Shown here: positions 16,250 to 46,372 of the stretch, in pieces
Layout: each line of letters opens with the position of its first letter
Numbering within the stretch: the stretch's first letter is position 1
NCBI GenBank assembly: GCA_026014485.1
Contig: JAOZIE010000014.1
Span: 101,017-165,016 of the forward strand
DNA length: 64,000 nucleotides
Direction of reading: 5' to 3'
DNA from: Candidatus Bathyarchaeota archaeon
GTDB lineage: Archaea > Thermoproteota > Bathyarchaeia > Bathyarchaeales > Bathycorpusculaceae
Notes under the pieces: model-generated
What the model was told of the DNA's origin: nothing
Seen by the model: the letters and a program-made list of their open reading frames with translations, nothing else
Database searches by the model: none
Translations under genes and position numbers: made by a program

Positions 16250-17479
16250 CTAGGTTTGGCTGAGGATGATGCGTTTTATTTTTCGGGGGGTGCGGTTGAG
16301 CAGTGCCTTCTTGTTTAGCGTCAGGAACCTTTGTCGTTTGACGGCGTCGGGAACCTTTGGCTCAATTTTTTGGGAGGGTGTCCGAGGCATCTCGGAGTAC
16401 TCGTAGACCTCCACGTAGTCAAGCACTACTTCGTCGAGGAGTTTGAGGCTTTTCTGGAAGTCCTCGTCGGTTTCCGTGGGGAACCCCGCAATCAACTGGC
16501 TCCGCACAATCAGGTTGGGGTATATCTTCTGCATCGCTGCGATGTATTCTTTGTATTCCTCTACGGTGTAGGGGCGGTTCATCAGCTTCAGGATTCGGTT
16601 GCTTCCTGACTCCACAGGCGACTCGATGTACCGAATCTTTCCCGTCCGCAGAATCGGCGCAAACTCATCCATCATATCCATCATGAACCGAGGATGCACA
16701 TTCCGCAAGTTAATCCTGAACTTGCCCTCCACCTCGACAAGTTCGGATAGAAGGCTGCAGAGGTTTTCACCCAAATCCGCCCCGTAAGAACCCAAATCAG
16801 TTCCCAGCAGGCTAAACCGCTTAAACCCCCGCGTCAAGCCATCTTGAAACTCGGCCCGCAACTGCTCGATGGGTTTGCTTTTTATGGTTCCGCGGGCTTG
16901 CGGCACCACACAGTAGGCGCACCTTCCACGGCACCCCGAAGAAGTTTTAATGTAAAATGTGGAAGCATCGCCAGCAGGAGCCAAGTTGAAGTGGTTATTC
17001 ACGTAATTCACCCACGACACACCAACCCGCTTAAAGCCGCGACTCAGAAACGAACCCTGATAACGCAGCAACCAACCCGCCGTCTTCTCATCATACTTCC
17101 ATGGCGCAACAAGATAATTCCCCACAGCCGCTCCTGACCCGCCAACTCCCAGTTCCTTAAGGCGGGGAAACTCAACCTCTGAAACCGTCACGTCCACAAA
17201 TTCGTCTTTGAAGATTTCAGGGTAAATTTTGGGCAGGCATCCCCAGACGATGAGCCGCTGGTTCGGATTCTTGTTCCGCTGAATTTCCCGTATGATGCTA
17301 AAGGATTGCTTCACTCTCTGCCCATGCCCGCCGCAGCAGTTAAACAGCACAACATCAGCAGCGTGCCAGTCCCCCACCATACGAAACCCGTTCTGGATAA
17401 GGAACGTTTCTGCTTTGGCGGCGTCCACACGGTTCTCTGGGCAACCGTTGCAGACCACACAGACAGAACGCTTCTCCAC
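16250..17479 (-). CDS. Methylthiotransferase-like radical SAM protein lacking a TRAM domain
   Basis: A 409-residue member of the MiaB/RimO/CDKAL1 radical SAM group. The N-terminal UPF0004 domain has the three auxiliary-cluster cysteines (NGCPEN, FNCCGG, WGCLP). The radical SAM motif CRGRCAYC sits near residue 185, followed by LLGTDLGSYG, a counterpart of the family's T-x-Q-D-x-x-x-Y-G. The protein stops at KRIILSQT right after the barrel, so the C-terminal TRAM RNA-binding domain of tRNA enzymes is missing. A complete canonical family member is encoded at 53253-54539, so this is a divergent paralogue. It is the last gene of the 12-gene minus-strand run with hemB, ubiD and B12-radical SAM genes, 29 bases after the hemB-like gene. 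Sulfur insertion or methylthiolation of a small molecule or peptide is the inferred role. Confidence 0.7.
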   Translation of the reverse strand: MEKRSVCVVCNGCPENRVDAAKAETFLIQNGFRMVGDWHAADVVLFNCCGGHGQRVKQSFSIIREIQRNKNPNQRLIVWGCLPKIYPEIFKDEFVDVTVSEVEFPRLKELGVGGSGAAVGNYLVAPWKYDEKTAGWLLRYQGSFLSRGFKRVGVSWVNYVNNHFNLAPAGDASTFYIKTSSGCRGRCAYCVVPQARGTIKSKPIEQLRAEFQDGLTRGFKRFSLLGTDLGSYGADLGENLCSLLSELVEVEGKFRINLRNVHPRFMMDMMDEFAPILRTGKIRYIESPVESGSNRILKLMNRPYTVEEYKEYIAAMQKIYPNLIVRSQLIAGFPTETDEDFQKSLKLLDEVVLDYVEVYEYSEMPRTPSQKIEPKVPDAVKRQRFLTLNKKALLNRTPRKIKRIILSQT

Positions 17480-17508
17480 ACAACCACCCGCTTTCAGAAA
17501 TGCTTGGT

Positions 17509-18483
17509 TTAACGGTTGAGTAACGCGGCAGCTTCAAGCCCGTGGTATGTCAGAATCATGTCTGCGCCTGCCCTCTTGATGGAGTTCAGCGTCTCCATAA
17601 GCAGCCTGTCCTCGTTGAGCAGACCTTTCTCTGCCGTGGTTTTAATCATGGCGTATTCTCCGCTGACTTGGTAGGCGGCTATGGGAACCGTGGGGAACTG
17701 CTGCTTCATGCGCAGAATCAAATCTAGGTTGGTTAACGCGGGTTTAACGATGATTATGTCTGCGCCTTGGCTGATTTCCAAGTTTGCCTTTTGGATGAAC
17801 ATTTTTTCGTTAATTATGTCGATTCGGAATTTGCTGGAGTCAATTCCTGCTCTTGCCGTCCCCGCTGACTGCGTCATGGTCTGATAGAACGGCTGAAACA
17901 GGCAACTGTCCGTTTTTATGTAGCTCATAACCGCGACGTCGTCAAAGCCGCCCGCGTCCAGCGCCGCCCGAATCTGCAGCACTTGCCCGTCTGCCATGGC
18001 GGCGGGGGCAATCAGGTCGGCGCCTGCCTCCGCATGGGCAACCGCTATCTTCGCCAGCATCTGCGCGGTTTTCTCATGGAGCACCTTGCCGTTCTTTGAG
18101 TAGACGCAGAATTCTTCCCGCGTGAAATCACACATGCACACGTTGCTTATCAGAACAAGATTCTGGTCAAACTCGCTTTTGAGCCTCCGAAAAACCTGCG
18201 CGTGAAAACCGTCTTTCTGCAACGCCACCGAACCGTCCTCGTCTTTGTGGTTTATCACCCCAAACACCATGACTCCCGGTATACCTGCGTCCACTGCTTT
18301 TTGGCATGTTTTCACAGCTTCATCCAGCGACAGGTACCTTTGCCCCTTCATCGACGGAACCTCAAGGGTTTGGGCGTCTTCCCGAACAAATATGGGGAAA
18401 ACTAAATCGTTGGTGGACAGTTCAAAGGGTCTTACAAGCCGAAGCATCTGCTTCGATTTCTTAATTCTAGTCGTAACACTCAT
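17509..18483 (-). CDS. hemB: HemB (porphobilinogen synthase) homologue with altered substrate pocket
   Basis: A 324-residue protein of the HemB family by length and fold. Both Schiff-base lysines are kept (K190 in MSYIKTDS, K247 in VKPAL), as are the three metal-ligand cysteines C116, C118, C126 and the block AYQVSGEYAM. Two things differ from ordinary HemB. The YGPFR block reads FQPFY, and the GDR that follows reads IDS, so both arginines that hold the A-side aminolevulinate carboxylate are replaced. One arginine (R220) appears nearby where HemB usually has Gln. The Asp before the first metal Cys is Asn (SNVCMC). ATG 18483 follows a GAGG ribosome binding site. It may still make porphobilinogen or may join a different substrate; its cluster also contains hemA but no hemL, hemC or hemD. 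Confidence 0.75.
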   Translation of the reverse strand: MSVTTRIKKSKQMLRLVRPFELSTNDLVFPIFVREDAQTLEVPSMKGQRYLSLDEAVKTCQKAVDAGIPGVMVFGVINHKDEDGSVALQKDGFHAQVFRRLKSEFDQNLVLISNVCMCDFTREEFCVYSKNGKVLHEKTAQMLAKIAVAHAEAGADLIAPAAMADGQVLQIRAALDAGGFDDVAVMSYIKTDSCLFQPFYQTMTQSAGTARAGIDSSKFRIDIINEKMFIQKANLEISQGADIIIVKPALTNLDLILRMKQQFPTVPIAAYQVSGEYAMIKTTAEKGLLNEDRLLMETLNSIKRAGADMILTYHGLEAAALLNR

Positions 18484-18595
18484 GTTCAAACCTCAAAATC
18501 CGTACCAAAATTCAAACTCCAAAAACGTCAGCTGAAAACAAGCACTGCCACAAGTTAGCTGAATGGGCGATGTTTCTTTCTGGAGGTGAATTTGG

Positions 18596-19396
18596 TTACC
18601 TGAAGAGGCGCCTGCTTTTTCCCTGTTGCGGTGTGTTGTAGTTTGCTGACAGGGTTTCTGCGGCGTCGTAGGCTGCCTTGACGCTTTGGGAGAGTCCCCT
18701 GCGGATTTGTTTGTTCGCGCCAGAGTCAAGCCACAATTGATTCAGAAAGGGATTATCCGATACAGCCAAAACCGCCCCTGCCTGTATGCCGCATAATTGG
18801 CTGATGAGGAACAGCGCGGAGGTTTCGCATTCTATGCCCAAGATGCCTTCGCGGTTCAGTTTGGAGATTAGCTGGGTTTCTTCTTTTATGAGGGCAGCTG
18901 TGGTGTAGACTGGTCCTTTATGCACGGGGGTTTCTTGGGGCAAAGCTTTTTCAAGCGTTTCCTGAATAGCCGCGCTTGGAGCGGCGGCGACGTTTTCGGG
19001 AGCGTAGTATCTGGTTGTTCCTTCGCCTCGCATGGCGGCTGTTGGGAGAATTACGTCGCCCATTTTGATGCTGCCTTGCAGTGCGCCTGCAAACCCTACG
19101 CCCACGATTACTTTAGCTGGTGTTTTAGATAGCACTCTGACGGTGATTTCGGTGGCGAGCGCGCCCATGTCTTGGCAAACAACCGCCAAGGGAACCTCAT
19201 TATACTTTCCTATGTAGAACTGCCCTGTCTTCTTCACTTTGCTTAGCGGCTTTAGAAGCAGTTCCTCATTGTTTCTTTGGATTCCTAGCCCAACCAAAAC
19301 CACCTCAGGAATGTCTTGCCGCTTGTCTTTGGGTAAACAGCCACGCGAGAATGCGTCGAGGAATTTTTCCTCCCAACTGCCTTCACGGTTTTGCAA
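18596..19396 (-). CDS. Nucleoside phosphorylase family protein
   Basis: A 266-residue protein of the PNP/UDP phosphorylase family. The Gly-rich phosphate/ribose regions are present (VVCQDMGALATEITVRVL, VGVGFAGALQGSIKMGDVILP), as is the family motif GILGIECETSALFLISQ, where ExE contacts ribose. The C terminus has the AVSDNPFLNQLWLDS segment. Uridine phosphorylase-like or hydrolase (futalosine or methylthioadenosine type) specificity is possible. Start TTG 19396 has AGGGTG just upstream. It lies between DUF362 and the hemB-like gene in the same minus-strand run, so cleavage of a nucleoside intermediate (for example a product of a radical SAM step) is conceivable, but this is speculative. Confidence 0.75.
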   Translation of the reverse strand: MQNREGSWEEKFLDAFSRGCLPKDKRQDIPEVVLVGLGIQRNNEELLLKPLSKVKKTGQFYIGKYNEVPLAVVCQDMGALATEITVRVLSKTPAKVIVGVGFAGALQGSIKMGDVILPTAAMRGEGTTRYYAPENVAAAPSAAIQETLEKALPQETPVHKGPVYTTAALIKEETQLISKLNREGILGIECETSALFLISQLCGIQAGAVLAVSDNPFLNQLWLDSGANKQIRRGLSQSVKAAYDAAETLSANYNTPQQGKSRRLFR

Positions 19397-19464
19397 CTAC
19401 AACACCCTTTCTTTGACGTGTGGAATCGGGAGATGATGAAGCTGAACCTGTTTATGGGTTTTTC

Positions 19465-20277
19465 TTAAATCGGTTTCAGTTCGTAGTCAATTTTGCCCAC
19501 GCCGAACTCAGCAGCGTACTTCAGGTGTCGTATCTGCTCGGGCTTGGGTTTTCCCAGAATCCGCTTCAGTTTCCGCTCTACCTTCACCAAAAGCTCAAAT
19601 CCATATGCGTCTAAGCTGACGGGGTCGGCGCCTGCATACATGCATCCAAGCTCAGCGGTTTTACCCCCATGCCTCATCTCCTGCGCGCAAATCATCGTTT
19701 GAACCGCATCCACAACATAGAAGTCAGGCTTTCGGACCCTGCTGAGTTCCGCAATTGCCTTGTGTATGTCTTTGTTTTTGTTTTGGTGTAGAAACTGTTT
19801 TTCGTGGTCTGAGAGGAACCCGTACTGGTTTTTCAACGCTCCCGTCAACCCCGTGGAAAAGTTATACTTTAAAACAGGCAGAGAAACCATGCAATCAAAT
19901 TCCCAAAGCGCCGATGAAACCTCAAGGTCAAAACCGCTTTGCGTGCGGATGGTCTTCATTTTGGGTTTGGCTAAATCAACAAAATCAACATTCAGGTTTC
20001 TGCAGAGTTTGGCTATAGGGTACTGCAGGATGTCGACGGGGCAGTCGAAGGCTTTCCCGTCGCCCACCCCCACTTTATCTGCGCTTTTCTTGAGCTGTTC
20101 AACAACCGCCTGAACCGTCTCAAGATGTGTCGTCGTCGGGTAAGCTTCATAGGAAACCATGTTGGGTTTAACCAGCACGGTTTTGCCCCTGACTTTTTCT
20201 GCGACTTTTTCCGCGGCAAAGAATTTTTGGACAAACACGCGGCGATTTGTGGTTTTTTCCCAGTAAACCGTTGACAT
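19465..20277 (-). CDS. DUF362 family protein
   Basis: A 270-residue DUF362 protein without a ferredoxin extension. Typical elements are VLVKPNMVSYEAYPTTTHLETVQAVVEQL, KVGVGDGKAF, the segment LPVLKYNFSTGLTGALKNQYGFL and DAVQTMICAQEMRHGG with ADPVSLDAYGFELL near the end. DUF362 proteins recur next to radical SAM and redox enzymes in anaerobes, but no general biochemical function is established that I know of. ATG 20277. It sits 76 bases after the first B12-radical SAM gene stop and before the nucleoside phosphorylase, all co-directional. Confidence 0.8.
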   Translation of the reverse strand: MSTVYWEKTTNRRVFVQKFFAAEKVAEKVRGKTVLVKPNMVSYEAYPTTTHLETVQAVVEQLKKSADKVGVGDGKAFDCPVDILQYPIAKLCRNLNVDFVDLAKPKMKTIRTQSGFDLEVSSALWEFDCMVSLPVLKYNFSTGLTGALKNQYGFLSDHEKQFLHQNKNKDIHKAIAELSRVRKPDFYVVDAVQTMICAQEMRHGGKTAELGCMYAGADPVSLDAYGFELLVKVERKLKRILGKPKPEQIRHLKYAAEFGVGKIDYELKPI

Positions 20278-20353
20278 AAATGTTCACTTGCTGTTTTGCT
20301 TTGGGCATCTACGCTGTTGGGCTACACCTTTGGGTTTTTCGTTGGCGCGCCCT

Positions 20354-21835
20354 TTAGTGTGCCTTTAGTTTTCCCTTTAGCCGGTTGTGTATGTATCTTG
20401 GGATTTGGGGTGCGTTTGAGATGAAGTCTTTTGCCACCTTTCCCAAGTGTCCCTGCTGGAGGTCGCTGGTCATCTGGCTCCACTGCCGTTTGAATGAGGC
20501 TTCACTCACCAAGTACTCTCGGGCTTTCTCCATGTCCCCAGACGTAAACGTCGGCATGTTCAGCACAGGTTTTGAAAGACCATACTGGTTCCAGTCTCTG
20601 GTGACTATCCAGCCGTTACGTTCAGCCAACTCGTACAGTTGAGTGCCTGGGTACGGGGTCGCCAGAGAAACAGAAAACACGTCTGGTTTCACCCTGTCGA
20701 TGAACGCTGCCGTATTCCTCACTGTATCCCATGTTTCCCCAGGTAACCCCACAATAAAATTGGTCTCCACCAGTATTCCTTCGTTCTGGATGGCTTTGAT
20801 GTTTTTTGTGACGGTTTCCATGTTGCAGGCTGATTTGCCCAGTTTCTGGAAGAGTTCAGGGTCGCCTGTTTCAATTCCCAACTGGATGCGGGTGCAGCCT
20901 GCCTTCTTCATTTTCTTAAGAAGCTCCACTGAAAGCTTGTCTGCTCGGGTCTCGCAAGCCCACGAAACCCGTACGCCTCGCTGGATTATTTGGTTGCAAA
21001 TTGATAGAGCTCGGTTGGTGTCCATGCTGAAGGCTTGGTCTTCGAACCAGACAACTTCCACGCCGTACTTTTTCACCAAACCTTCGACATCGTCCACGAT
21101 TTTGGTCGGTGACCGTCCCCGCCACTTGCCAAAAACAACGGGGTAAACGCAGTAAATACAGTTAAACGAGCACCCGTGGCTGCCCAACACCGAAGCAAAC
21201 CTGACAAAACGGCTGCTTGACTCTCCAGCGATAAACGACGACTTCTTCACCGTGTACCTGCTTAAGTCTAAGAGGTGGTAGGCAGGCGGCGGCAGAGAAT
21301 CAAGATCCCGATTCAACGGGAGACTCAGGAAATCCACGTATCTGCCTTCACTCTGCTCAACGCGTTCTCCCGCTGGGATTTTCTGGGCTTGCTGCACCGC
21401 TTCAGACACGGCAAATTCCAGTTCCGCTTCGCCCACAACCAAGTCAAGCTTACTTTTCCTCATGACATCCTGCGGCGTCATCTTACACAGCGAACCCCAA
21501 CCGACCAACCTGGCTTCTGGAAGCTCCGCCTTTAGGCGAGAAATCACCGTCAAATCGCTGTCAAACGACGGCGCTGAAACCCTGCAAACAATCACATCAG
21601 GATTGAACTTTTTCACAGCCGAAAACAGCGTCGACAGACTCAAGTCGTGAATTTGCCCGTCCACCACGGCGACATCATAGCCCTTTTTTTCCAGAATAGC
21701 CGCAGCAAACGCTTCGTGAAGAGGCGGAAAAACCGTTTGTCTACTGCCCTTCTTGACGGTGGAGGCGGTTCCGAAGCCTCCGCCAAAGTCCCGCAGAACA
21801 TGAATTCCTGCTGGACTCGGCAGATTCAGTAACAA
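20354..21835 (-). CDS. B12-binding-type radical SAM protein (first)
   Basis: A protein of about 493 residues. Residues about 1-150 form a Rossmann-like cobalamin-binding domain (ILEKKGYDVAVVDGQIHDLS, FNPDVIVCRVSAPSF), without the classical DxHxxG, as is common in this class. The radical SAM motif CSFNCIYC is near residue 225 and is followed by ETRADKLSVELLKKMKKAGCTRIQLGIETG and the ELYPGT-like segment ATPYPGTQLYELAERNGW. Enzymes of this class methylate unreactive carbons or form C-C bonds in lipids, tetrapyrroles and natural products. The start is uncertain: TTG 21835 is used here, but the in-frame codons upstream (KTKI) continue the first beta strand. It is followed by DUF362 and preceded by a second enzyme of the same class. 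Confidence 0.75.
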   Translation of the reverse strand: MLLNLPSPAGIHVLRDFGGGFGTASTVKKGSRQTVFPPLHEAFAAAILEKKGYDVAVVDGQIHDLSLSTLFSAVKKFNPDVIVCRVSAPSFDSDLTVISRLKAELPEARLVGWGSLCKMTPQDVMRKSKLDLVVGEAELEFAVSEAVQQAQKIPAGERVEQSEGRYVDFLSLPLNRDLDSLPPPAYHLLDLSRYTVKKSSFIAGESSSRFVRFASVLGSHGCSFNCIYCVYPVVFGKWRGRSPTKIVDDVEGLVKKYGVEVVWFEDQAFSMDTNRALSICNQIIQRGVRVSWACETRADKLSVELLKKMKKAGCTRIQLGIETGDPELFQKLGKSACNMETVTKNIKAIQNEGILVETNFIVGLPGETWDTVRNTAAFIDRVKPDVFSVSLATPYPGTQLYELAERNGWIVTRDWNQYGLSKPVLNMPTFTSGDMEKAREYLVSEASFKRQWSQMTSDLQQGHLGKVAKDFISNAPQIPRYIHNRLKGKLKAH

Positions 21836-21887
21836 GATTTTCGTTTTTGCCTTACACCTCTGTTTGAGCCTTTTTTGAGCTGAATTT

Positions 21888-23207
21888 TTAGCTGTAGTTT
21901 GCGCCTATAACTGTCCGAAGCGCTTCAGAGAAGCCTGCTGTTAAGCCGCAGACGGCATGCGCCATTTTTTCGCCGTAATGGCTGTAGTAGACGGGTAGAA
22001 TGAGGTTGGTTTCTGGCTGGATTTTTCTTTGCTCCAGCGCCAAGTCATAGAGGGGCGTGTCAGGGTAAATGCGCATGCGGGTTAAACCGAAGGACCGAAG
22101 CTTTTTTCGGCTGATATTTAGGAATTTTGCGTGAAGATGCAAAAGCCCCCGGTAATGCGACATGTTGCCTTGGGGGAGGTCATAAACAAAGCAGTAGCCC
22201 ATGTTAGCGCCCTCTATACTGTTTGCCCAATGAGCGGTATTAACCACGCAGTCCACGGTCATGTTCTTGCAGAGCACCCGCATGGCTTCGTTTGATGCTC
22301 CGTCAGGAGAAAAATTGAATTGCGCGCAACCTGACTCCACAGCGGTTTTCATGAGTTTAAACGTCATGTAGTCTGGGCGGAAATCTGCCTGCCACTTGAT
22401 GTCTAGGTGTCTTCGGATGATTTCTTGGCAGACTTTCATGGCGTGTGAGGCGGGGTAATTGAAGATGGGATCAGAAAAGTAGAATTCTCTGATGCCATGC
22501 ACGTTGACAAGTTCTTCCAGCTCGTCAACCACCCTTTTTGGTTTTCGAAGCTTAGGAAGCGCCCCTGTTCTCTTCGGATTTGGACAGTACAGGCAGTTAA
22601 ACACGCAGCCCCGCTTAGTCTGAACTCCCATCGAATAGGGCTGCTTACGGTAGATAGAGAGGTCAAAGTGTTCTCTTGCAGGAGGCGGTAACGCATCAAA
22701 ATTTGGGTAGGTGTTGTCTCTGGCAGAAAAAATAAGTCTGTTGCCTTTGCGTGCAATCACGTTTTTGGCTTTCTCGGGGTGATTCAGGTTATCCAGCAGC
22801 TTGGGTACCGCTGCTTCACCCTCCGAGACGACTGCAAAATCAATTTCAGGGTTTCTTTTCATTATTTCCTTGGGAAAAATCGAGAAACCCGCGCCTCCAA
22901 CCAGCAGCTTCGCGTTGGGCGCTTCCTGCTTTATCAGTTTAACCAGCGAAACGAAAGGCTCATAGTAAGACCGTGGAAGCTGCCCTGGAGAGCACGTCAC
23001 GCTGTCTATGTTTCTGAGCGATAAGCCGATGACATCTGGCTGAAACTTTTCAATGCTGGACTTCAAATTCCCGTTAAAGTTGTTAACGTTTGAGTCTAAA
23101 CATAAAACCTCATGTTTCCTGAGCGAACCCGCAATGTAGGCTAACCCCAACGGAAAAACCGTGCACTCACATGTGCTGGTCGGTGTTTGGCAAAGCAGAA
23201 CTTTCAC
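21888..23207 (-). CDS. B12-binding-type radical SAM protein (second)
   Basis: A 439-residue protein. The cobalamin-type N-terminal domain starts with VLLCQTPTSTCECTVFPLGLAYIAGSLRKH and has the SLRNIDS and VGGAGFSIFPKEIM segments. The radical SAM motif CVFNCLYC is at about residue 205, followed by NPKRTGALPKLRKP and EFYFSDPIFNYPASHAMKVC. The pattern is that of the subfamily where the substrate is drawn in by the VxGGxxxxxxP domain. GTG 23207 overlaps the end of the ubiD gene by 41 bases, implying co-translation. It is only distantly related to its neighbour at 20354, so the two probably do different steps. Confidence 0.75.
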   Translation of the reverse strand: MKVLLCQTPTSTCECTVFPLGLAYIAGSLRKHEVLCLDSNVNNFNGNLKSSIEKFQPDVIGLSLRNIDSVTCSPGQLPRSYYEPFVSLVKLIKQEAPNAKLLVGGAGFSIFPKEIMKRNPEIDFAVVSEGEAAVPKLLDNLNHPEKAKNVIARKGNRLIFSARDNTYPNFDALPPPAREHFDLSIYRKQPYSMGVQTKRGCVFNCLYCPNPKRTGALPKLRKPKRVVDELEELVNVHGIREFYFSDPIFNYPASHAMKVCQEIIRRHLDIKWQADFRPDYMTFKLMKTAVESGCAQFNFSPDGASNEAMRVLCKNMTVDCVVNTAHWANSIEGANMGYCFVYDLPQGNMSHYRGLLHLHAKFLNISRKKLRSFGLTRMRIYPDTPLYDLALEQRKIQPETNLILPVYYSHYGEKMAHAVCGLTAGFSEALRTVIGANYS

Positions 23208-24354
23208 AGGTAACTTCCCCCAAATGCTGTTTCGTTGAAGCAGGACTCTGTTCCAATCCGTATTCTGCCCAGTTGCGGACTGCTTTTTCAGTATCCTCCA
23301 AGGGTAACTTAACAGGCGACAGCGTCAAGCCATTTTTGAGCCTGCCGTAAAACCCGCAAGCTAACGCGGCAACCGACCTTTTTTGAGAAACGAACTCTTC
23401 TTCAGGCACGTTCTGTGGGGCACTGTTGAATGCGCCTATGTAGTGTTCTTCTTGTGGTTTTTTGCCGCTGTATGTTGCTTGATAGATGGGTTTTTCTCGA
23501 TGCGTCACGGCGGTAACCTGCAGGACGGGTTGAAGATGCGGTTTCCCGTAGTAACCGTTGCTTTCGCCGAAAGGACCCTCCATCGCCCGAATGTTAGGCG
23601 GAATCATCCCTTCAATTACAAACTCAGCGGAAGCAGGCACCTCAACGTTCACGGTTTTGCACCTCGTAACCCTCAACGGTTCCCCTCTCAACGCCCCCGC
23701 AAACTCCAATTCATCCTCGTCCAGTTCAAGGTCGGTTGCAGCAGCTAAAACCACCGCGGGGTCTAACCCCACCGCCACAGCAACCTCAAGAGGCTTACCC
23801 TTCGCCTCCGCCTTCGCATAATGCGCGGCGATGTGTCTTCCCGTCATAATGTTTACACCTAACTGCCGCTTCCCCTGCAACATCAACCTGTAAACCCCCG
23901 CGTTGCGTTTTCCAGTTTCAGGGTTCTTCGAAATCACCGCTCCAAGCGTTATGTACGGCGCGCCGTCAAGCGGGTTCCACTTCAGAACAGGCAGCCTAAA
24001 CAGGTCCACGTCATCTCCTTTGATGACCACTTCGCTGCATTGGCCATCCGAGACTTCTTTGGTGTTTAGCCACTTGCCCTGTTTTCGGTGGGACCACTCA
24101 GAAAAAAGGTGGCGTTCAACGGTTTCCAGCGCAAGAGCTATCCGCCTAAAACTGCCCAAAACACCCGCGCACATCGGGATGTCAAAGCCTTTTAGGTTCT
24201 GGAAAACCACGGCTTTTTCCCGTTTTTTCTGGAGCCTGTCCAAGATGGCGCTGACCTCAAACGATGAAACCGCCTCAACTTCCCTGTTGATTCTTGCTAG
24301 TTCGTCTTCGGCTTCAAGGTGAAGCAGAAATTCTCTTAGCCCCTCAAACGGCAT
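23167..24354 (-). CDS. UbiD-family prenylated-FMN decarboxylase, short form
   Basis: A protein of about 395 residues from ATG 24354 (GAGG 8 bases upstream; the TTG at 24369 is less likely). The prFMN-site features are present: N151 and R156 in RNAGVYRL, and the Glu pair E259/E264 in EGPFGESNGYYG. UbiD enzymes reversibly (de)carboxylate aromatic or alpha,beta-unsaturated acids using prenylated FMN from UbiX; no ubiX is in the window. After about residue 345 the normal C-terminal domain (VVDEDVD-type strand, WA-T-R region) is not found; instead there are some 50 residues of unrelated sequence, so the protein is about 50-100 residues short. It lies between a GNAT-SCP2-like gene and the second B12-radical SAM gene. 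Archaeal mevalonate-pathway UbiD homologues are an alternative, but the cluster argues against that. Confidence 0.75.
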   Translation of the reverse strand: MPFEGLREFLLHLEAEDELARINREVEAVSSFEVSAILDRLQKKREKAVVFQNLKGFDIPMCAGVLGSFRRIALALETVERHLFSEWSHRKQGKWLNTKEVSDGQCSEVVIKGDDVDLFRLPVLKWNPLDGAPYITLGAVISKNPETGKRNAGVYRLMLQGKRQLGVNIMTGRHIAAHYAKAEAKGKPLEVAVAVGLDPAVVLAAATDLELDEDELEFAGALRGEPLRVTRCKTVNVEVPASAEFVIEGMIPPNIRAMEGPFGESNGYYGKPHLQPVLQVTAVTHREKPIYQATYSGKKPQEEHYIGAFNSAPQNVPEEEFVSQKRSVAALACGFYGRLKNGLTLSPVKLPLEDTEKAVRNWAEYGLEQSPASTKQHLGEVTCESSALPNTDQHM

Positions 24355-24408
24355 CCGAAATCGCCTCAAACCTGCCCGCGACTACCCTTAACTGCCCTGT
24401 GGACGCCT

Positions 24409-25218
24409 CTATTTTACGGTTGCCTGCAAGATTTTGAAGGCGCGCCGCAACTTGAAGAGGTGTCTTAGTCCTTTTTTGATTCTGATTTTTCCAGTTATCC
24501 ACGCCTTAAATAGGTCGCCTACGCTTGCGCTTTCGCCGATGATTGACTCCGACAAAGGCAGATATCCTTCGATGACCACGTTGGGGTCTTGGGGTTCCTG
24601 CTCGTCTAAGCGGACACCTTGGGAGTCAATGTACACGGTGAATTTTGGGGCGCCCTTAAGTCTGAAAACAACGTTTAGGTTGAGTTCCCCAAACTTTCTT
24701 TTAAGCTGCTCATCGGATTCACAGCAGCGGTTCATCCTTTGAAATTTCTCTTTGAGCTTGTTGCAGGTGAAGAGCTTTTTGTAGGCTACCGCGTGGGTGG
24801 GTAACAGGACGTATCCCGCCGCAGGCTGATACAGGCTTCTGTTTAAACCAGCGTTGGTAAACATGAAACTCAACAAAATGCCCTTTTTTTCGAATGCCCC
24901 TGAAGAACGCAGATGCGCCAAAAGCCCTCTACCTAACCCCTGCCTTCTGTAGGCGCAGTCAACGGTTACATCTCCAGCCAGAGCAGCCCTAACCTGAATG
25001 TTCTTTGACAACTTGAGGTTTCGGGGAAGCCAATGGTTACAGCCGATTAACTGCTGATTCTCCTCTGCTAAAACCACAAGGTCAGGGTCAAAATCTGGAT
25101 TTGACTTGTACTTCCAAACCCAATAGTTATCCTGCTTGAAGCTTCCAAAAGATTTCTTCAATAGCTCCTGCAATGCAGCTTCGTCACCGTCTGAATAAGT
25201 CCTAAAAGAGTGATTCAT
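24409..25218 (-). CDS. GNAT acyltransferase with C-terminal SCP2-like domain (second of pair)
   Basis: A protein of about 269 residues. Residues 3-145 are a GNAT fold with the CoA-binding loop RRQGLGRGLL. Residues about 165-269 resemble the SCP2/sterol-carrier-like domain seen at the C terminus of Eis-type acetyltransferases (FTVYIDSQGVRLDEQEPQDPNVVIEGYLP, then SESIIGESASVGDLFKAW and a basic end). ATG 25218 is chosen because the upstream gene's stop at 25226-25228 is part of a GGGTGA ribosome binding site 7 bases away. Likely acylates an amine with a CoA thioester, possibly the product of the PaaK-like ligase in the same run. Substrate unknown. Confidence 0.7.
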   Translation of the reverse strand: MNHSFRTYSDGDEAALQELLKKSFGSFKQDNYWVWKYKSNPDFDPDLVVLAEENQQLIGCNHWLPRNLKLSKNIQVRAALAGDVTVDCAYRRQGLGRGLLAHLRSSGAFEKKGILLSFMFTNAGLNRSLYQPAAGYVLLPTHAVAYKKLFTCNKLKEKFQRMNRCCESDEQLKRKFGELNLNVVFRLKGAPKFTVYIDSQGVRLDEQEPQDPNVVIEGYLPLSESIIGESASVGDLFKAWITGKIRIKKGLRHLFKLRRAFKILQATVK

Positions 25219-25225
25219 TTCTGTT

Positions 25226-26098
25226 TCACCCAATATCCGCTCTTGGAATAGCCCACATAGACTTAACCTGCATCAGCGAAAGCAGCCTAACGGTTTTCTG
25301 CAGTTTCCAAAAAGGACGCACTTGAATTCGAGAAGACAAAACCGCTTTTCTAACGCTTCCAGCACCGAATAAAACCGACACAAACGTCTGCAGGTCAATG
25401 GTGACCGTAACTTCAGGGTTGACTGCGCCATTAATCAGGGAGAAGCCCTTTTTCTCTGTTTTTAGAACAAACTGGTTCTTGAACCAATCGGGGCATTTGG
25501 TCACCTGAAACATAAACGTTCCCTCAAAGTCTATGGCTTCCTTTCTGCTTTGAAGAACTTCACTTAGCAGACGGGGCAAGTCCATCACGCTCAAGAAACA
25601 CTGCTCAGCAGGCGTTTCCACAAAATCCAATTCTTGGCATACTTCTCGGACAACTTGGTTTTCGGCGTATTCGTTTAGGACAAGCGAGTCGCTTCCAACA
25701 TTTCTAGCGTACTCCGCAGCCTGAGTCAACAGCTTTCTGAAGACCGCTTTGCCGTCGCAGTTTGTGCAGTAACTCATTTCCCAGATGTTCCCAGTTTTTC
25801 CAACAACCGCATAACCCACCACTTCGTTTTGCACGGCGGCTACGAATATGCCTTCTTTTTCTACGTCTGGGCGGGTGAGACAGCACCACCTCCAGTAGGC
25901 GGGGGTTCGAGGCGCAAAACCCGCCAAATGAGTGTGGGTTTGGTTGAAAAGACGCGCCAGTTCCTCCTCGTCACCCTCTCTGTACGTTCTCAGGACACAC
26001 TTTTCTGCATCTGTCCTCAAGCTTTGCTTGTTGCCTGTTGGGTTTTGCACGGTTACAAACGGACTGCAAAAAAGTTTTCTCACCGAAAACTGCTTCAT
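25226..26098 (-). CDS. GNAT-like protein with C-terminal SCP2-like domain (first of pair)
   Basis: About 290 residues from ATG 26098, which overlaps the deacetylase stop in the sequence ATGA and has GGGGAG upstream. The architecture matches its neighbour: a GNAT-type N-terminal domain (VLRTYREGDEEELARLFN, VGYAVVGKTGNIWEMSYC) and an SCP2-like C-terminal domain (GFSLINGAVNPEVTVTIDLQTFVSVLFGAGSV). The CoA loop is degenerate: where RxxGxG/A is expected the sequence is CDGKAVFRKLL, so catalysis is doubtful and it may form an inactive or regulatory subunit with the downstream protein. The tandem arrangement suggests a heteromer. Confidence 0.65.
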   Translation of the reverse strand: MKQFSVRKLFCSPFVTVQNPTGNKQSLRTDAEKCVLRTYREGDEEELARLFNQTHTHLAGFAPRTPAYWRWCCLTRPDVEKEGIFVAAVQNEVVGYAVVGKTGNIWEMSYCTNCDGKAVFRKLLTQAAEYARNVGSDSLVLNEYAENQVVREVCQELDFVETPAEQCFLSVMDLPRLLSEVLQSRKEAIDFEGTFMFQVTKCPDWFKNQFVLKTEKKGFSLINGAVNPEVTVTIDLQTFVSVLFGAGSVRKAVLSSRIQVRPFWKLQKTVRLLSLMQVKSMWAIPRADIG

Positions 26099-27021
26099 AG
26101 GGCATCTCCCCATTTGGCGTTAGCTTTTTGCGCTGCCGAAAGCATCGTCTCAACCGTTAACGAGCCATTCCGCACTTTACCTTGAGCATATTTGAGAAAC
26201 GGCGAGAAAACTTTTGCAACGTATTTCTTTATTTTGTCGTCGGAATCTCCGAAAGTCCACGGGTGAAACCACAGGTGCAGGGGAACTTTTTTGGCTACGG
26301 CTACATCCAGTATCCAATCCAAAATCATCGGGGTTACACTAAGGTTAAGGTATAGGCTCGGATGGACATTGTATAGGTTGCCTCTTTTTTCTATGTACAT
26401 CCCATCACCCAAGGGGCTTCCAGCGGATTCCCTGTAGCATCGGTAGTTAAATTTCTCCAGCAAATCTAAATGCTGCACCATATTTCTTGGGAAAACGAAG
26501 CTCTTCGGGGACACCGTGAACTTTCTTAAGCCCACAGCGATTTTTTCAAGTTCTTCTTGGGCTTCTTCTCTTGAAAGAGCCTGAAAATTCCTATGGGTGT
26601 ACCCATGCGCGCCAATATCATGTTTGACTGGGGAATCAAGCAGTTTATCCACAATTTCCTGTGCGACTTGGGCGAATTCGGTTATTTGACCGCGCAGGGC
26701 AAAGGTGGCAGGTACTTCAAACTCGTTGAATGCTCCAAGAAAAACTGGAAGCGCGCGTTCTTCGATGTCGCCGATGTAGGCTTCGCTGAAGCATTTGTGA
26801 ACGTTCGAGTCGTTTTTTCCTCCGTTAGCCAACCCTAACTCTTTGTTGCCTGCATCTACATCCACCGAGAAAATCAGCATCGCCTTGTCAAACTGGGCTC
26901 TTGGCTTCTTCAACTCGAAGGATACCAAATGGACCACTTGAGAAACTAGGGAGACGGAGCTCTCGATAGCTCTGCCCCGTTTCTCGGTTAAGAACAAATC
27001 AGAAAAGGCTTTTTTCGCCAC
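26095..27021 (-). CDS. Polysaccharide deacetylase-like (NodB fold) protein
   Basis: A 308-residue protein with a carbohydrate esterase family 4 type barrel. Motif 1 is FSVDVDAG (metal and base Asp) and motif 2 is HDIGAHGYTHRNF (metal His pair). The later segments FVFPRNM and LHLWFHPWTFGD replace motifs 3 and 5, as in the archaeal and polyketide-cluster variants that act on small amides. There is no signal peptide, so it is intracellular. This fits deacetylation of a biosynthetic intermediate rather than cell wall. The first 45 residues before the barrel are helical. GTG 27021; 23 bases after hemA stop. Confidence 0.8.
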   Translation of the reverse strand: MAKKAFSDLFLTEKRGRAIESSVSLVSQVVHLVSFELKKPRAQFDKAMLIFSVDVDAGNKELGLANGGKNDSNVHKCFSEAYIGDIEERALPVFLGAFNEFEVPATFALRGQITEFAQVAQEIVDKLLDSPVKHDIGAHGYTHRNFQALSREEAQEELEKIAVGLRKFTVSPKSFVFPRNMVQHLDLLEKFNYRCYRESAGSPLGDGMYIEKRGNLYNVHPSLYLNLSVTPMILDWILDVAVAKKVPLHLWFHPWTFGDSDDKIKKYVAKVFSPFLKYAQGKVRNGSLTVETMLSAAQKANAKWGDAL

Positions 27022-27044
27022 AAAATTCGCCAGCCAATTAGATG

Positions 27045-28364
27045 CTAAATGACAAACTCGTAAGCGACCTTTTTAGCCGCATTAATTTCGTTTGTGGGTT
27101 CTGAGGTTTTTGTTTGAAAAATCTTCTCCGCTACAGTCAGCACTTCGCCGTTGTTGCTTAAAGCTGCCTCCCTCAACTGTTCTATGGGGATATGCGCGAT
27201 TCTTTCGGTGAGTTCACGGGAGAATCTGTCTAAAACCATGAGTTTTTTCTTGTCCAGTTTACCCATTTTGCGGACAGCCCTGTCCAGCTCTTTTTTGCGG
27301 ATTTCCTCAAATTTCCTGCAGATATCCGTGATTAACGGCTGAGCCACCAGCTTTGAAAGCTCCGCTTCAAAACGTTCAAGCTCCTCCGCAATTATGGCTT
27401 TAGATTTCTCCGCTTCTGCCTCTCGGTTTTTCAGGTTCTGAGCCACCAATTTTTTGAGGTCGTCAATTGTTCTGAGGCTGATTCCCTGAAGTGCCCCCAC
27501 TTTCTCTTCGACAGCGCGAGGCTGCGAAATGTCAATTATAAGCAGCCGCTTTGACGGCTCAAAGCTGTGGACAAAAGCCGAAACCTGTTCCTCCCTAAAA
27601 ATCGGCTGCGTAACTGAAACCGCCGCGATAACTAAATCCACATAAGGCATGGTTGACAGGACGCTTTCAAACTGCACGGCTTCCCCCGAGATTTTCTGGG
27701 CGAGAAGCAAGCTTTTCTCGTAGCTTCTGTTCGCAACCATTATGGCCGCGGCAGATTTGCTTTTGAGGGTTTCAGCGGCCAGCGTTCCTGCTTCTCCCGC
27801 GCCGATAATCAGGGCCTTTCTAGATGTTAGGTCCCCTAGTTCTTTTGCGGCAAGGTCAACGGCGGCTGAACTAATCGAAAGTGCGCCTTCGTTTATTCTG
27901 GTTTCATTGCGGATTTTTCTGCCCGTGTTTATGGCTTTCATGAAGGCTCGGTTCAGAATCACGCCGACGGTTCCGTTTGCTTTAGCCCTGCGCCATGAAC
28001 TGTGTACTTGCCCCAGAATTTGGTCTTCGCCGATAACCACCGATTCTAAGCCTCCCCCCAAATAGAACAGGTGCCTTAACGCTTCCTTTCCCTGAAACGC
28101 CTGCACTGTTCTGGATATGATGTCTAGGCTGACGCCTGTCTCGGTGCTCCAAAACTTCAAAGCGTTGTTAACTGCCTCGCCGTTTTTCTGCTTTGACGAC
28201 ACATAAAAAACTTCGACGCGGTGACAGGTCTGATGCAGAATACACTCCTGCACTGAACCATTCTCCATCAGTTTATGAGTGAACTTAGTTTCGTCATTAA
28301 TTTTTAATGCCTCAAGAAGGGGTAAACTAGCGTTCTTGTGGGAGACCGAAAGGCAACCTATCAT
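27045..28364 (-). CDS. hemA: Glutamyl-tRNA reductase HemA
   Basis: A protein of about 440 residues from ATG 28364 (MIGCLSVSHKNASLPLLEAL is the family start; the longer frame to 28460 would overlap the PaaK-like gene). It has the catalytic Cys in TCHRVEVF (TCNR in most enzymes; the essential Thr-Cys-x-Arg is kept), GGGLESVVIGEDQILGQV, the NADPH-binding Rossmann loop IIGAGEAGTLAAETL, LLIIDISQPRAVE, and the C-terminal dimerisation helix. HemA reduces glutamyl-tRNA to glutamate-1-semialdehyde, the first step of tetrapyrrole (heme, F430, B12) synthesis. Genes for GSA aminomutase and later steps are absent from the window, while a changed HemB lies nine genes downstream, which suggests a pathway other than ordinary tetrapyrrole synthesis. 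Confidence 0.9.
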   Translation of the reverse strand: MIGCLSVSHKNASLPLLEALKINDETKFTHKLMENGSVQECILHQTCHRVEVFYVSSKQKNGEAVNNALKFWSTETGVSLDIISRTVQAFQGKEALRHLFYLGGGLESVVIGEDQILGQVHSSWRRAKANGTVGVILNRAFMKAINTGRKIRNETRINEGALSISSAAVDLAAKELGDLTSRKALIIGAGEAGTLAAETLKSKSAAAIMVANRSYEKSLLLAQKISGEAVQFESVLSTMPYVDLVIAAVSVTQPIFREEQVSAFVHSFEPSKRLLIIDISQPRAVEEKVGALQGISLRTIDDLKKLVAQNLKNREAEAEKSKAIIAEELERFEAELSKLVAQPLITDICRKFEEIRKKELDRAVRKMGKLDKKKLMVLDRFSRELTERIAHIPIEQLREAALSNNGEVLTVAEKIFQTKTSEPTNEINAAKKVAYEFVI

Positions 28365-28398
28365 GGACAAAACCCTGAAAAGCGCTGTTTGCGAGGCG

Positions 28399-29682
28399 TT
28401 AAGAAATAACGATGACTTTCTTGAATTTGTTTTCAAATTCGCCCTGCGGGACAAACGCAACCTCGTTGAATCCTATTCCAACCCGCGTCTTGATTTCCAT
28501 GGTGATTTCCTGCTTGAGCGTTTTATCCCGGTACGCTGGCAAAGAAGCGGCGGTTTCAACCCGAAGAGTCGCTTCGTGGGCGGGGGTTCGTTTATCAACG
28601 ATTATCTGGCATTTGCCGGTGACTTCTGGGAACTTTGACAGCAGAAACTCTATGTGGCTTGGAAAAATGGTTACCCCCCGGATTTTAGTCATGGAATCTT
28701 CTCTGTCGATGTCTGCGCTGATGGTGGGGTGGCACAAGCCGCATTCGCATTTGGTGAAGCCCAAGTAGGTGGTTAAATCCTTTGAAAGGTAACGCACAAG
28801 CGGGAACGCCTCTCTTTGCAGACTAGTGATTACCAGCTCGCCTCGTTCGCCTATTCCCAGAGGCTCATGAGTTTTGGGGTCTACCACTTCAACAAGGTAG
28901 TATTCTGGCCAAACATGATGCACGTCAGGGTTGCTCTTGCAGTTAACGGAGAATCCTGGAAACTCCGTGGCGCCGTAGTCTGAGATTACCGTCCTGTAGC
29001 CGCCCTCCATTTTAAGAATCTCCGTTTGCGTCTTGGTCGGTTTTTCAGCGACGCACACCGCAAGTTTAAGCTTGTATCTGCTCAAATCTTCACCCAGCGA
29101 CTTAGCAACTTCCAGGATTCTAAAGTGATAGTTAGTTGCGGCGTAGAGGATGGTGGTTCCAAACTGCTTTATCAGAAGAATCTGCCTCTCCGTCTCTGCT
29201 GGACCAACTGGTATGACAAACGCCCCGATTCTTTCGGCGCCCCAATGCATTGACCAAGCAGCCTGCCACAGCCCATACGCAGATGTTATCTGGACGACAT
29301 CCTTTTTTGTGGCTCCATAGTAGAGGAGTCTTCTTGCGGAAGCGTCAGTGATCATGGCTATGTCTCTTTTTGTGTGGGCAACTCTCAGTGGGTTTCCCGT
29401 GGTTCCGCTGGACATGCGTACGGTTGAAATCTCTGAGGGCGGCACGGCTAAAATGCCCTTGAAGTTCTGCTCTAACTCTTCTCTGCTGGTTAACGGAACC
29501 TTAGCAAAATCCTTTAGGCTGTTGATTTGCGACGGCTTGACGCCTGCAGCATCAAATTTTTCACGGTAGAAACGGCTTCTATGGTAGACTCTCCGTAGCT
29601 GCCTCTGCAGGAGGCTAAGCTGGTGTTCTTCTAATTCCTTAAAAGATTCTCGCGTTTTTTCTTTCAAAAAAAGTTCAGTCAT
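28399..29682 (-). CDS. PaaK-like AMP-forming CoA ligase
   Basis: A 427-residue adenylate-forming enzyme of the phenylacetate-CoA ligase group. The P-loop MSSGTTGNPL is near residue 90, YGATEFPG is the A5 motif, GERGELVITSLQREAFPLVRYLSKDLT covers A7/A8, and RGVTIFPSHIE is the PaaK-type C-terminal domain entry. A Cys pair (CECGLCHP) is inserted near residue 320 and could bind zinc. It would activate an aryl or acyl acid through an adenylate to a CoA thioester. It is the first gene of the twelve-gene minus-strand run, with hemA starting 34 bases later. In that setting, it may feed the GNAT-like acyltransferases. Substrate unknown. Confidence 0.8.
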   Translation of the reverse strand: MTELFLKEKTRESFKELEEHQLSLLQRQLRRVYHRSRFYREKFDAAGVKPSQINSLKDFAKVPLTSREELEQNFKGILAVPPSEISTVRMSSGTTGNPLRVAHTKRDIAMITDASARRLLYYGATKKDVVQITSAYGLWQAAWSMHWGAERIGAFVIPVGPAETERQILLIKQFGTTILYAATNYHFRILEVAKSLGEDLSRYKLKLAVCVAEKPTKTQTEILKMEGGYRTVISDYGATEFPGFSVNCKSNPDVHHVWPEYYLVEVVDPKTHEPLGIGERGELVITSLQREAFPLVRYLSKDLTTYLGFTKCECGLCHPTISADIDREDSMTKIRGVTIFPSHIEFLLSKFPEVTGKCQIIVDKRTPAHEATLRVETAASLPAYRDKTLKQEITMEIKTRVGIGFNEVAFVPQGEFENKFKKVIVIS

Positions 29683-34932: not shown

Positions 34933-37047
34933 TTATTTGCTTTGTACGTAGATGGCGGCTTTTCCGTTTGCGTATACGCAGCTGCTGTTACCGAACACGT
35001 TCTCAAAGTCGGTGATGTACCAGATGAAGCGCTCGTGTTCTATGACGCCGTATACTATGTTTAGTCTTCCAAAACAAACAAGTGCGCCGTTTATCTGCAT
35101 GTCTGAAATCTGTGGCGAAAGCGTTTTGTGCATACGGGGGGCTACCAGAGCGTAGCTTGCCATGTACCTGACGCCGAAGTCGGTGTAAATCTCTGACTGG
35201 TTGATTCGGTTGTCTTGTACCCAGTATGCGCTTTCAACTTCTGGTTTATCCACGTAGAGGTCATGCAGGTCAAGTGGCCAGTTTTTTATTTCTTTTCTGC
35301 TCAAGGCAATTGAGGTGGGGACATCATCGGTTACTTGATAGATGAAGCCCACTTGAAAGAGAAAATAGCTCACCAGAATAACCGATAACACAACGACGCC
35401 TGCTCTGTGCAGGGACTTGGCGAGGTCTTTAGGATGCGCCATTTTTTTTGCGGCTTTAGCTACTAAACTGCCGATTGCGGTTGCCCCTACGATTAGAAAG
35501 GGCGCTAAAAAGTATTGTGCGATATGGTAGAACCTTGAAGCGTTTAAGCTCTCCGCAAACGTGGGCACTCCCATGCACAGTATCAGAACAACCATGCTTA
35601 CAATGGCCATTGATGAAAACTCCGAGCCGAACTTGATTCTTTCGCGTCTAATCAGGAGCAGTTTGAGGATTCCAATCGCCACTATGATTTGTAGAGCTAG
35701 GAAAAGGTAGGTGCTGACGCTGTGCAGTGGAGAGAAGTATACGGGTGTTAATCCTGCTATGCCTGGCGCTGGGATTCCGCTTTGGATGCTGAGGTAAATC
35801 TGTCGGATGATGTTTGTTAGTGCTCCGAACGCTGCGGGGGTGCCTAGGGCGTACCATGCGTAGGTTATGCCGACGCATCCAAGCACGATGGGGGCTGTAA
35901 CTAACGGTGCGGCTATCTTGTCGATGCGTTTGAAGATTTTGGATAAAATGTATGTTCCGATGAGGAATCCCACCAGCAGGTAGGCTAGGGCGTAGTGCGA
36001 AAAAATTAGGCCTACGCTGAAAAGCAAAAAGAGGATTTTTCTTGCTGTGATGTTGATTTTGTCTTCTACCAAAAGAACAATTAGCCCTGCTAAAAAGAAT
36101 TCGCCGATGATTTCACGGGTTAGACCAAGCATCTGCACAAAGAACGTTGGGGTAGCCATGAAGAAGAACGCCGCCAGAAACGCAAGGTTTGAGCTGATTT
36201 TCTTGGCGTACGCTTTGTAGAGCATTACGGGTACCAGCGTGAAAATGAGGGGATAGAAAAGCTTGAAAATCCACTGCATGTTGGTGCCTGTGAAAACTGC
36301 AAGAGTGGTGGGTAGAATTGTGATGCTGAGCATGCTGTTGTACTGGTGTGGTAGTGACGGATTCCATGCTGCGTTGAGTGATGTTGTTTCGGCGAAGTAG
36401 TATTCCGTGTGGACATCCCAGCCTATGAGGTACTGGGTTGACAGGGAAACGTGGAAAAGCAGAAAGAAGGCGATGACGAGGATAACTATCGGAATGTACT
36501 TGGGTTCGATTAACCGTTTTGACATGCTTGCAAACAGTAAACCCGCAACTGCTACAACAAGAACCAGCAGCAGCAAAGCGTTACCGTAAAGGTTGACAAG
36601 TTCTGCTCCCACAATCGTGAGCAGCGGGATTACGACTAACAGGTGTATCTTGGGATTTCTAAATGGGCTGGGCGATTTCTCAGGCTCCAGTTTTCCTCTG
36701 TCTCTGAGCAATGCCGCTGTAAACATGGATAATGTGATGATTGTGGTGGCTCCGACAAGCGGGAAAAGCGTAAGTGGACGCGGAATACTTAGCAGGCTAA
36801 ACAAAGTGTTCACAAGCAAGCCCGTGGCCATAACAAGCAGCAAGCTTAAAGCGACGCTGAAGGCGCTTGTGATTTCCCAGTTCAGTTCCTCTTTGACGAT
36901 GAGGGTGAGCAGTAGAAAGCCTGGGATAAATGCGAGATAGCAGAAACTCATGACGGCTCTTAAAATGGGTAAGTTGAATACTATCGAAAGAATCACTAGA
37001 AGCTGGATTAGAATTATGGTTATAGCCGTTGGTTTTTGAAGTTGCAC
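34933..37047 (-). CDS. DUF2206 polytopic membrane protein, glycosyltransferase-like
   Basis: A 704-residue protein with about 13-15 transmembrane helices through residue about 540, then an extracellular domain of about 160 residues containing Trp and Tyr-rich segments (LDLHDLYVDKPEVESAYWVQDNRINQSEIYTDFG). DUF2206 proteins are archaeal and look like GT-C enzymes that use polyprenyl-phosphate sugars. An extracellular-loop DxH-type motif (IGWDVHTEYYFAE) after the fifth or sixth helix resembles the metal/acid loop of GT-C transferases. It would add a sugar outside the membrane. ATG 37047; it is in a co-directional glycan run. Confidence 0.7.
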   Translation of the reverse strand: MQLQKPTAITIILIQLLVILSIVFNLPILRAVMSFCYLAFIPGFLLLTLIVKEELNWEITSAFSVALSLLLVMATGLLVNTLFSLLSIPRPLTLFPLVGATTIITLSMFTAALLRDRGKLEPEKSPSPFRNPKIHLLVVIPLLTIVGAELVNLYGNALLLLVLVVAVAGLLFASMSKRLIEPKYIPIVILVIAFFLLFHVSLSTQYLIGWDVHTEYYFAETTSLNAAWNPSLPHQYNSMLSITILPTTLAVFTGTNMQWIFKLFYPLIFTLVPVMLYKAYAKKISSNLAFLAAFFFMATPTFFVQMLGLTREIIGEFFLAGLIVLLVEDKINITARKILFLLFSVGLIFSHYALAYLLVGFLIGTYILSKIFKRIDKIAAPLVTAPIVLGCVGITYAWYALGTPAAFGALTNIIRQIYLSIQSGIPAPGIAGLTPVYFSPLHSVSTYLFLALQIIVAIGILKLLLIRRERIKFGSEFSSMAIVSMVVLILCMGVPTFAESLNASRFYHIAQYFLAPFLIVGATAIGSLVAKAAKKMAHPKDLAKSLHRAGVVVLSVILVSYFLFQVGFIYQVTDDVPTSIALSRKEIKNWPLDLHDLYVDKPEVESAYWVQDNRINQSEIYTDFGVRYMASYALVAPRMHKTLSPQISDMQINGALVCFGRLNIVYGVIEHERFIWYITDFENVFGNSSCVYANGKAAIYVQSK

Positions 37048-37085
37048 ATTCTAAATCTCCTAAGTTTTTCTCAAATTAGCTTGTT

Positions 37086-38228: not shown

Positions 38229-38230
38229 AG

Positions 38231-38908: not shown

Positions 38909-38916
38909 CTGTTTTG

Positions 38917-42502: not shown

Positions 42503-42506
42503 AGCT

Positions 42507-46368: not shown

Positions 46369-46372
46369 CTGA

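Follow-up and report, generated by a model that had tools for sequence, protein, structure and literature searches.

A porphobilinogen synthase paralogue with a replaced A-site, and its HemA partner, beside surface-glycan genes in Bathyarchaeia

What could a gene cluster make that encodes homologues of HemA and HemB while hemL, hemC and hemD are all missing from it? This question is raised by twelve genes on the minus strand of a Candidatus Bathyarchaeota archaeon genome, at positions 16250-29682 of a 64,000-nucleotide stretch (assembly GCA_026014485.1, contig JAOZIE010000014.1), hereafter the window. An earlier note on this DNA had described a changed HemB in the run and had argued that standard tetrapyrrole synthesis was not its obvious purpose. 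Here, the two paralogues (HemA2 and HemB2) are described together with a HemL counterpart found in relatives (HemL2) and with the genes that accompany them: a PaaK-like acyl-coenzyme A (CoA) ligase, a pair of GNAT acyltransferases and a B12-binding radical S-adenosylmethionine protein (B12-rSAM a). The genes of the run and of adjacent regions are listed in Table 1.

HemB2 and HemA2 as paralogues of tetrapyrrole enzymes

Contig C2 of the same genome carries an ordinary cluster with hemA, hemB, hemL, hemC, cobA and hemD, plus cobalamin genes; those other than hemA, hemB and hemC were identified by eye in translation and then served as queries in the locus comparison described below. Given this full set, in which hemL-hemC-cobA-hemD lie beside the ordinary hemB, the HemA and HemB of the window are paralogues. 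The second hem set that the earlier note had proposed to look for does therefore exist. HemB2 shares 39% identity with the ordinary HemB of its own genome.

HemB2 matches the porphobilinogen synthase (PBGS) profiles PF00490 (317 bits) and PRK09283 (319, cut-off 297), and its predicted structure is a PBGS barrel with a mean predicted local distance difference test score of 89.8 and template-modelling scores of 0.88-0.93 to the best solved PBGSs. In an alignment of 5 HemB2 and 68 ordinary HemB sequences (E. coli numbering), the Schiff-base lysines K195 and K247, the P-site residues F204, S273 and Y312 and the three zinc cysteines were kept in 5/5 HemB2 sequences. Five other positions were replaced in every HemB2: D118, S165, R205, R216 and Q220 are N, A, F/Y, S/P and R, respectively, whereas 68/68 ordinary HemBs carry D118, S165 and Q220 and have R at 205 and 216, or K in 4 of them. 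From PBGS crystal structures, we take these five residues to be the A-site set around the amino and carboxylate groups of the substrate. The change in HemB reported by the earlier note can thus be specified as the replacement of five A-site residues: the Schiff-base lysines and the P-site conform to the family, while the A-site recognition set does not. Known PBGSs use two Schiff-base lysines, and their product has separate A and P halves (PMC7242693, PMC6262466). In addition, two arginines of the lid region, R213 and R222, are new and invariant across HemB2.

The five HemB2 sequences formed one clade (support 100/100), the stem of which measured 1.4 changes per site. Their nonsynonymous differences (pN 0.08-0.22) were few against the synonymous ones (pS 0.74-0.96, at or near saturation), and HemB2 is therefore under strong purifying selection.

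HemA2 scored 358 against TIGR01035 (cut-off 209), kept the catalytic cysteine and had glutamyl-tRNA reductases as best PDB matches. Around this cysteine, HemA2 reads TCHR in 4/4 sequences, while essentially all other HemAs compared read TCNR. HemL2, which adjoins HemA2 in three relatives (G141, G195 and G199), is 59-61% identical to ordinary HemL; hemL is missing from the cluster in the window genome only. By sequence, both HemA2 and HemL2 seem to be functional. They resemble the ordinary C5 route (HemA plus HemL) in family membership and differ from it in the TCHR motif of HemA2 and in lying within glycan clusters, where they feed no HemC. Elsewhere, a second HemA match of a non-HemA2 type (29-40% identity) is seen in each of G051, G086, G087, G088, G107 and G210. 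HemL-like genes with 43-47% identity to ordinary HemL were seen in genomes without HemC (G141:C22:111559-112803, G141:C38:5-808, G158:C56:1135-2379 and G199:C51:14038-15261).

Distribution, absence of HemC and surface-glycan neighbourhood

The relatives searched were 257 Bathyarchaeia genomes, plus a 398-genome sample of the phylum. Among the former, HemB2 orthologues (65-69% identity) were found in G141, in G158 and twice in G195, other HemBs reaching at most 45%; HemA2 orthologues (50-56%) were found in G141, G195 and G199, all others reaching at most 40%. The phylum sample contained no HemB2 outside Bathyarchaeia (next best 330 bits vs 639-680) and no further PaaK orthologue, and plasmids gave just ordinary HemB-like matches, below 60% identity. 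A pattern scan of genome contigs returned a single HemB2, in UBA233, on a 3,866-bp contig that is probably the same as G195:C2.

The partner genes travel with these paralogues. Close PaaK orthologues (63-66%) occur in G141 and G199 only, directly before HemA2 both times, and in both genomes a homologue of GNAT2 (33-36%) stands immediately before PaaK and adjoins a homologue of GNAT1 (32%), so that the order GNAT1-GNAT2-PaaK-HemA2-HemL2 is identical. Within 15 kb, the G141 cluster also holds HemB2 and an orthologue of B12-rSAM a (51%). Conserved co-occurrence, which the earlier note had put forward as a check, is therefore borne out for PaaK, HemA2, the GNAT pair, B12-rSAM and HemB2 in G141 and for GNAT-GNAT-PaaK-HemA2-HemL2 in G199. 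It does not extend to the whole run as a single conserved pathway, since UbiD, the second B12-rSAM (b) and the DUF362, phosphorylase and methylthiotransferase genes of the window have no counterpart in the G141 cluster. The loci of G158, G195 and G199 sit on short contigs, and in G195 HemA2-HemL2 lie at a contig end.

It must be noted that no other HemA or HemB match was found in G141 or G195 at the thresholds used, genomes with estimated completeness (tool estimates) of 100 and 99%, respectively. Profile search also found no HemC in G141, G195, G158 or G199, the HemC model being positive in 11/14 control genomes; an ordinary tetrapyrrole operon would be expected to have hemC (and hemD/hemL) beside hemB or elsewhere in the genome, and in these four genomes hemC was found in neither place. 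In the family of the window genome, a HemB match is present in 45 genomes and HemC in 43 of them. All 43/43 genomes with an ordinary HemB have HemC, and comparison of the lists shows that the HemB-bearing genomes without it are G141 and G158, where HemB2 is the sole HemB. In this family, then, no HemB type but HemB2 occurs without HemC. The earlier doubt about standard tetrapyrrole synthesis was well placed: an ordinary hemB set lies elsewhere in the genome, and hemC is near HemB2 in no relative. HemB2 is thus like the ordinary enzyme in its fold, its two Schiff-base lysines, its zinc cysteines and its P-site Ser/Tyr/Phe, and unlike it in the five replaced A-site residues, the long stem, the lack of a hem operon and the partner genomes without HemC.

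A surface-glycan cluster (34933-48491) is adjacent to the twelve-gene run, upstream of it, and surface-glycan synthesis is the setting of the cluster in every relative. Glycan-type genes were found near 5/5 HemB2 loci, and HemC, HemD and CobA at none; at the 3.9-kb locus L036 the only glycan-type gene was Gfo/Idh. HemC and other hem genes accompanied ordinary hemB at 20/20 loci tested, most of them without a glycan-type match (one or more at L135, L136, L142 and L150). The glycan-type queries were drawn from the HemB2 loci themselves, so these matches arise partly by construction; the HemC contrast is unaffected. The HemB2 genes of G141 and G158 each adjoin a PIG-L deacetylase, and the G141 cluster has its own Polysacc_deac_1 gene, not orthologous to the NodB-like gene of the window by tblastn. 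Distant DUF362 genes lie near both HemB2 genes of G195 and in a glycan cluster of G096, where a relative of B12-rSAM a stands with DUF362 and Gfo/Idh and without hem genes.

A candidate pathway and its rivals

Since the only HemA and HemB in two near-complete relatives are altered copies and these genomes lack the heme step that follows, the pathway, known only for heme-like pigments, seems to be diverted to a different pyrrole product. The paralogy, the separate clade, the A-site replacement, the independence from tetrapyrrole genes and the glycan context are shown by sequence comparison. From these, we consider it an evenly balanced proposition that the core (HemA2, HemB2, PaaK, the GNAT pair and B12-rSAM, joined by HemL2 in relatives) forms an aminolevulinate branch that supplies no tetrapyrroles and in which a remodelled HemB would join aminolevulinate to a different partner to give a pyrrole, probably for glycan decoration. 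An aminolevulinate-derived building block, as the earlier note had supposed, is likely. A narrower form must be held more tentatively, its chances lying somewhat below even: HemB2 would be a crossed pyrrole synthase acting on one aminolevulinate and another carbonyl, the first use of HemA-HemL-HemB outside tetrapyrroles, and the pyrrole would be carried by an archaeal surface glycan.

In such a pathway, HemA2 would convert glutamyl-tRNA to glutamate-1-semialdehyde and HemL2 (the housekeeping HemL in the window genome) would convert this to 5-aminolevulinate; aminolevulinate production by HemA2 and HemL2 is well supported by their families. From the residue table we infer a crossed condensation: the intact P-site of HemB2 would hold a single aminolevulinate, the A-site lysine would carry a different carbonyl compound, and the substituted pyrrole formed would not be porphobilinogen. 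PaaK, whose closest solved relatives are phenylacetate-CoA ligases, might then form the acyl-CoA of a pyrrole acid, or of aminolevulinate prior to ring closure. The GNATs may transfer the acyl group to an amino sugar freed by the NodB-like or PIG-L deacetylase, and the B12-radical SAM enzyme may alkylate this group. The transfer of the acyl group, the order of the steps and the alkylation are speculative and drawn from the gene families.

Several points weigh against this proposal. The neighbourhood alone is no proof of a pyrrole on a glycan, because glycan clusters gather varied cargo. HemB2 occurs in just four genomes, in two of these on contigs shorter than 10 kb, and on the short contig of G158 no HemA2 is visible beside it. 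Confidence in the HemB2 model is low at the A-site lid (residues 209-212), and despite its replacements the A-site could accommodate aminolevulinate via other residues, Arg222 and Arg213 being invariant. Finally, the substrates of PaaK and of the GNATs cannot be read from sequence.

The last but one of these leads to the closest rival, according to which HemB2, through a re-wired A-site, continues to form porphobilinogen or joins two aminolevulinates to a close analogue, as an end product or attached to a glycan. The retained fold, Schiff-base lysines, zinc cysteines and P-site and the newly invariant R213 and R222 would suit it; we nevertheless regard it as unlikely, given that five residues fixed in 68 ordinary HemBs (with R or K at 205 and 216) are changed in every HemB2 and that such a paralogue would be redundant beside the ordinary HemB of the genome. 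Less probable still is that aminolevulinate itself is the acyl group, PaaK forming aminolevulinyl-CoA that is cyclised or placed on an amino sugar, with HemB2 catalysing an aldol or Schiff-base side reaction. PaaK does stand immediately before HemA2 in three genomes, and there is a precedent in actinomycetes, whose 2-amino-3-hydroxycyclopentenone (C5N) pathways use aminolevulinate for a specialised product instead of tetrapyrroles (PMC4525017). C5N systems, however, combine a cyclising aminolevulinate synthase with an acyl-CoA ligase and an amide synthetase, do not employ HemA, HemL or HemB and form no pyrrole. The twelve genes include a PaaK-like ligase and no aminolevulinate synthase-type gene, thus no such cyclising enzyme, and HemB2 retains the whole pyrrole-forming machinery save A-site recognition.

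We hold equally improbable that the product is a free small molecule or cofactor, as the earlier note had it, e.g., a cobamide lower ligand. B12-rSAM a is indeed nearest to BzaD, and a B12 nucleotide-loop gene set encoding CobT, CobD (threonine-phosphate decarboxylase) and CbiB adjoins the cluster (Table 1). Its BzaD score of 274.6 is far below the cut-off of 450, though, the B12 nucleotide-loop genes of the window were not found by tblastn in the clusters of relatives, and the glycan-type genes at 5/5 HemB2 loci, together with the B12-rSAM a relative whose glycan cluster has no hem gene, point elsewhere; the earlier suggestion is not upheld, the setting in relatives being surface-glycan synthesis throughout. 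A duplicated front end that raises the supply of aminolevulinate or porphobilinogen for B12 or heme is the least probable of all. HemA2 and HemL2 appear functional and B12 genes are nearby in the window, but the A-site of HemB2 is replaced and this reading is contradicted by G141 and G195, with neither HemC nor another HemA or HemB, unless a novel bilane synthase acts there; it was rejected on these grounds.

If the pyrrole-glycan reading is true, archaeal surface sugars bear a pyrrole group that is not known from any source. Likewise, a search of the open-licence literature gave no report of a HemB with a role outside tetrapyrroles, and the novelty of this role is judged from that search. A selected, A-site-altered clade in genomes without hemC would show that HemB can be recruited to other chemistry, and HemB2 would offer a ready system for testing which residues set the second substrate. 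In this regard, caution is needed in annotation, as a Bathyarchaeial bin that contains hemA, hemL and hemB cannot be assumed on that ground to make tetrapyrroles.

The twelve-gene run and its surroundings

All twelve open reading frames (ORFs) lie where the earlier note had placed them, in one direction, and hemL, hemC and hemD are absent from the run as it had stated. The overlaps that it had described, an ATGA at 26095-26098 and 41 bp between UbiD and a radical SAM gene (here the first B12-rSAM gene), agree with the coordinates; elsewhere there are short overlaps and gaps of 23-106 bp. The start of HemA2 is best placed at ATG 28364, which aligns with the starts of its orthologues and leaves no overlap with PaaK. 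The family assignments as HemA, HemB, UbiD, PaaK-like ligase, two B12-rSAM proteins, deacetylase and GNATs were matched by profiles. Of the proposed GNAT-SCP2-like pair, the GNAT domains are recognised by Pfam, while the SCP2-like part had no profile or PDB match.

Table 1. Genes of the twelve-gene run and of adjacent regions of the window.
Feature	Coordinates	Strand	Role	Profile matches and remarks
PaaK-like acyl-CoA (aryl-CoA) ligase	28399..29682	-	core	PF00501/PF14535; TIGR02155 262 bits, under cut-off 646
HemA2, glutamyl-tRNA reductase paralogue	27045..28364	-	core	TIGR01035 358 bits (cut-off 209)
NodB-like polysaccharide deacetylase	26095..27021	-		PF01522 (Polysacc_deac_1)
GNAT acyltransferase 1	25226..26113	-	core	PF00583; start possibly 26098
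GNAT acyltransferase 2	24409..25233	-	core	PF13527
UbiD-family decarboxylase	23167..24369	-	accessory	PF01977/PF20695; without usual C-terminal domain
B12-binding radical SAM protein a (BzaD/ladder-like)	21888..23207	-	core	TIGR04385 274.6 (cut-off 450); TIGR04072 227.5 (cut-off 360)
B12-binding radical SAM protein b (HpnJ/AprD4/BchE-like)	20354..21835	-	accessory	TIGR03471 183 bits, under cut-off
DUF362 protein	19465..20277	-	accessory	PF04015; recurrent in archaeal glycan clusters
Nucleoside phosphorylase-like protein (PNP_UDP_1)	18596..19396	-	accessory	PF01048
HemB2, porphobilinogen synthase paralogue	17509..18489	-	core	PF00490 317 bits; PRK09283 319 (cut-off 297); replaced A-site
MiaB/RimO-like radical SAM methylthiotransferase	16250..17479	-	accessory	PF00919 + PF04055; TRAM not matched
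Surface-glycan cluster: DUF2206, four group-1 glycosyltransferases, NTP_transf_5, polysaccharide deacetylase, GT2, hexapeptide transferase, Gfo/Idh, DegT aminotransferase	34933..48491	-		Pfam
CobT, CobD, CbiB	9538-13570	+		B12 nucleotide-loop set
Kelch-like repeat protein	13834-15237	-		signal-like start and C-terminal membrane segment (by eye)
GH5 cellulase-type protein	29825-32263	+		secreted-looking

UbiD is absent from the clusters of relatives and is thus accessory. Its TIGR00148 score is 299 (cut-off 245), the alignment stopping near residue 313 of 400, and its C-terminal domain is missing or unrecognisable; a frameshift or pseudogene was considered and rejected, as the missing C-terminus was not found when three frames were read. 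It is an extra paralogue, a second UbiD being encoded on contig C11. Therefore, and since relatives have one UbiD only, outside the cluster, a housekeeping role in the mevalonate pathway is unlikely. The best solved matches of the window UbiD are 6h6x/6h6v, presumably the furan-dicarboxylate enzyme HmfF, with PA0254 (4ip2) lower down. Its nearest solved matches are thus heteroaromatic UbiDs (HmfF, HudA/PA0254), from which it differs in lacking a recognisable C-terminal domain. By analogy, UbiD could act on a pyrrole acid, because of the HmfF match and because HudA acts on pyrrole-2-carboxylate (PMC7976604).

B12-rSAM a shares its B12-binding and radical SAM domains with the BzaD and ladderane-type proteins, its best profile matches, but scores well under both cut-offs, and copies occur in the glycan clusters of relatives. 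An identity with BzaD was rejected on its TIGR04385 score; none of its annotated neighbours is a bza gene either. Further relatives (42%) occur in G096 and G085; those at L155 (9361-10677) and L156 (9233-10435) are 41-42% identical, and the one at L155 belongs to a glycan cluster that lacks hem genes, its neighbours including FemAB-like, DUF362 and Gfo/Idh genes. No close counterpart of B12-rSAM b was found in the other clusters.

Among the neighbouring genes, ORFs 8703-9515 and 10651-11235, near the CobT/CobD/CbiB set, had no profile match. The N-terminal part of the GH5 cellulase-type protein includes two near-identical copies of a module of ~200 residues. A second MiaB-family methylthiotransferase is encoded at 53253-54539, with a TRAM-like match just under the Pfam cut-off.

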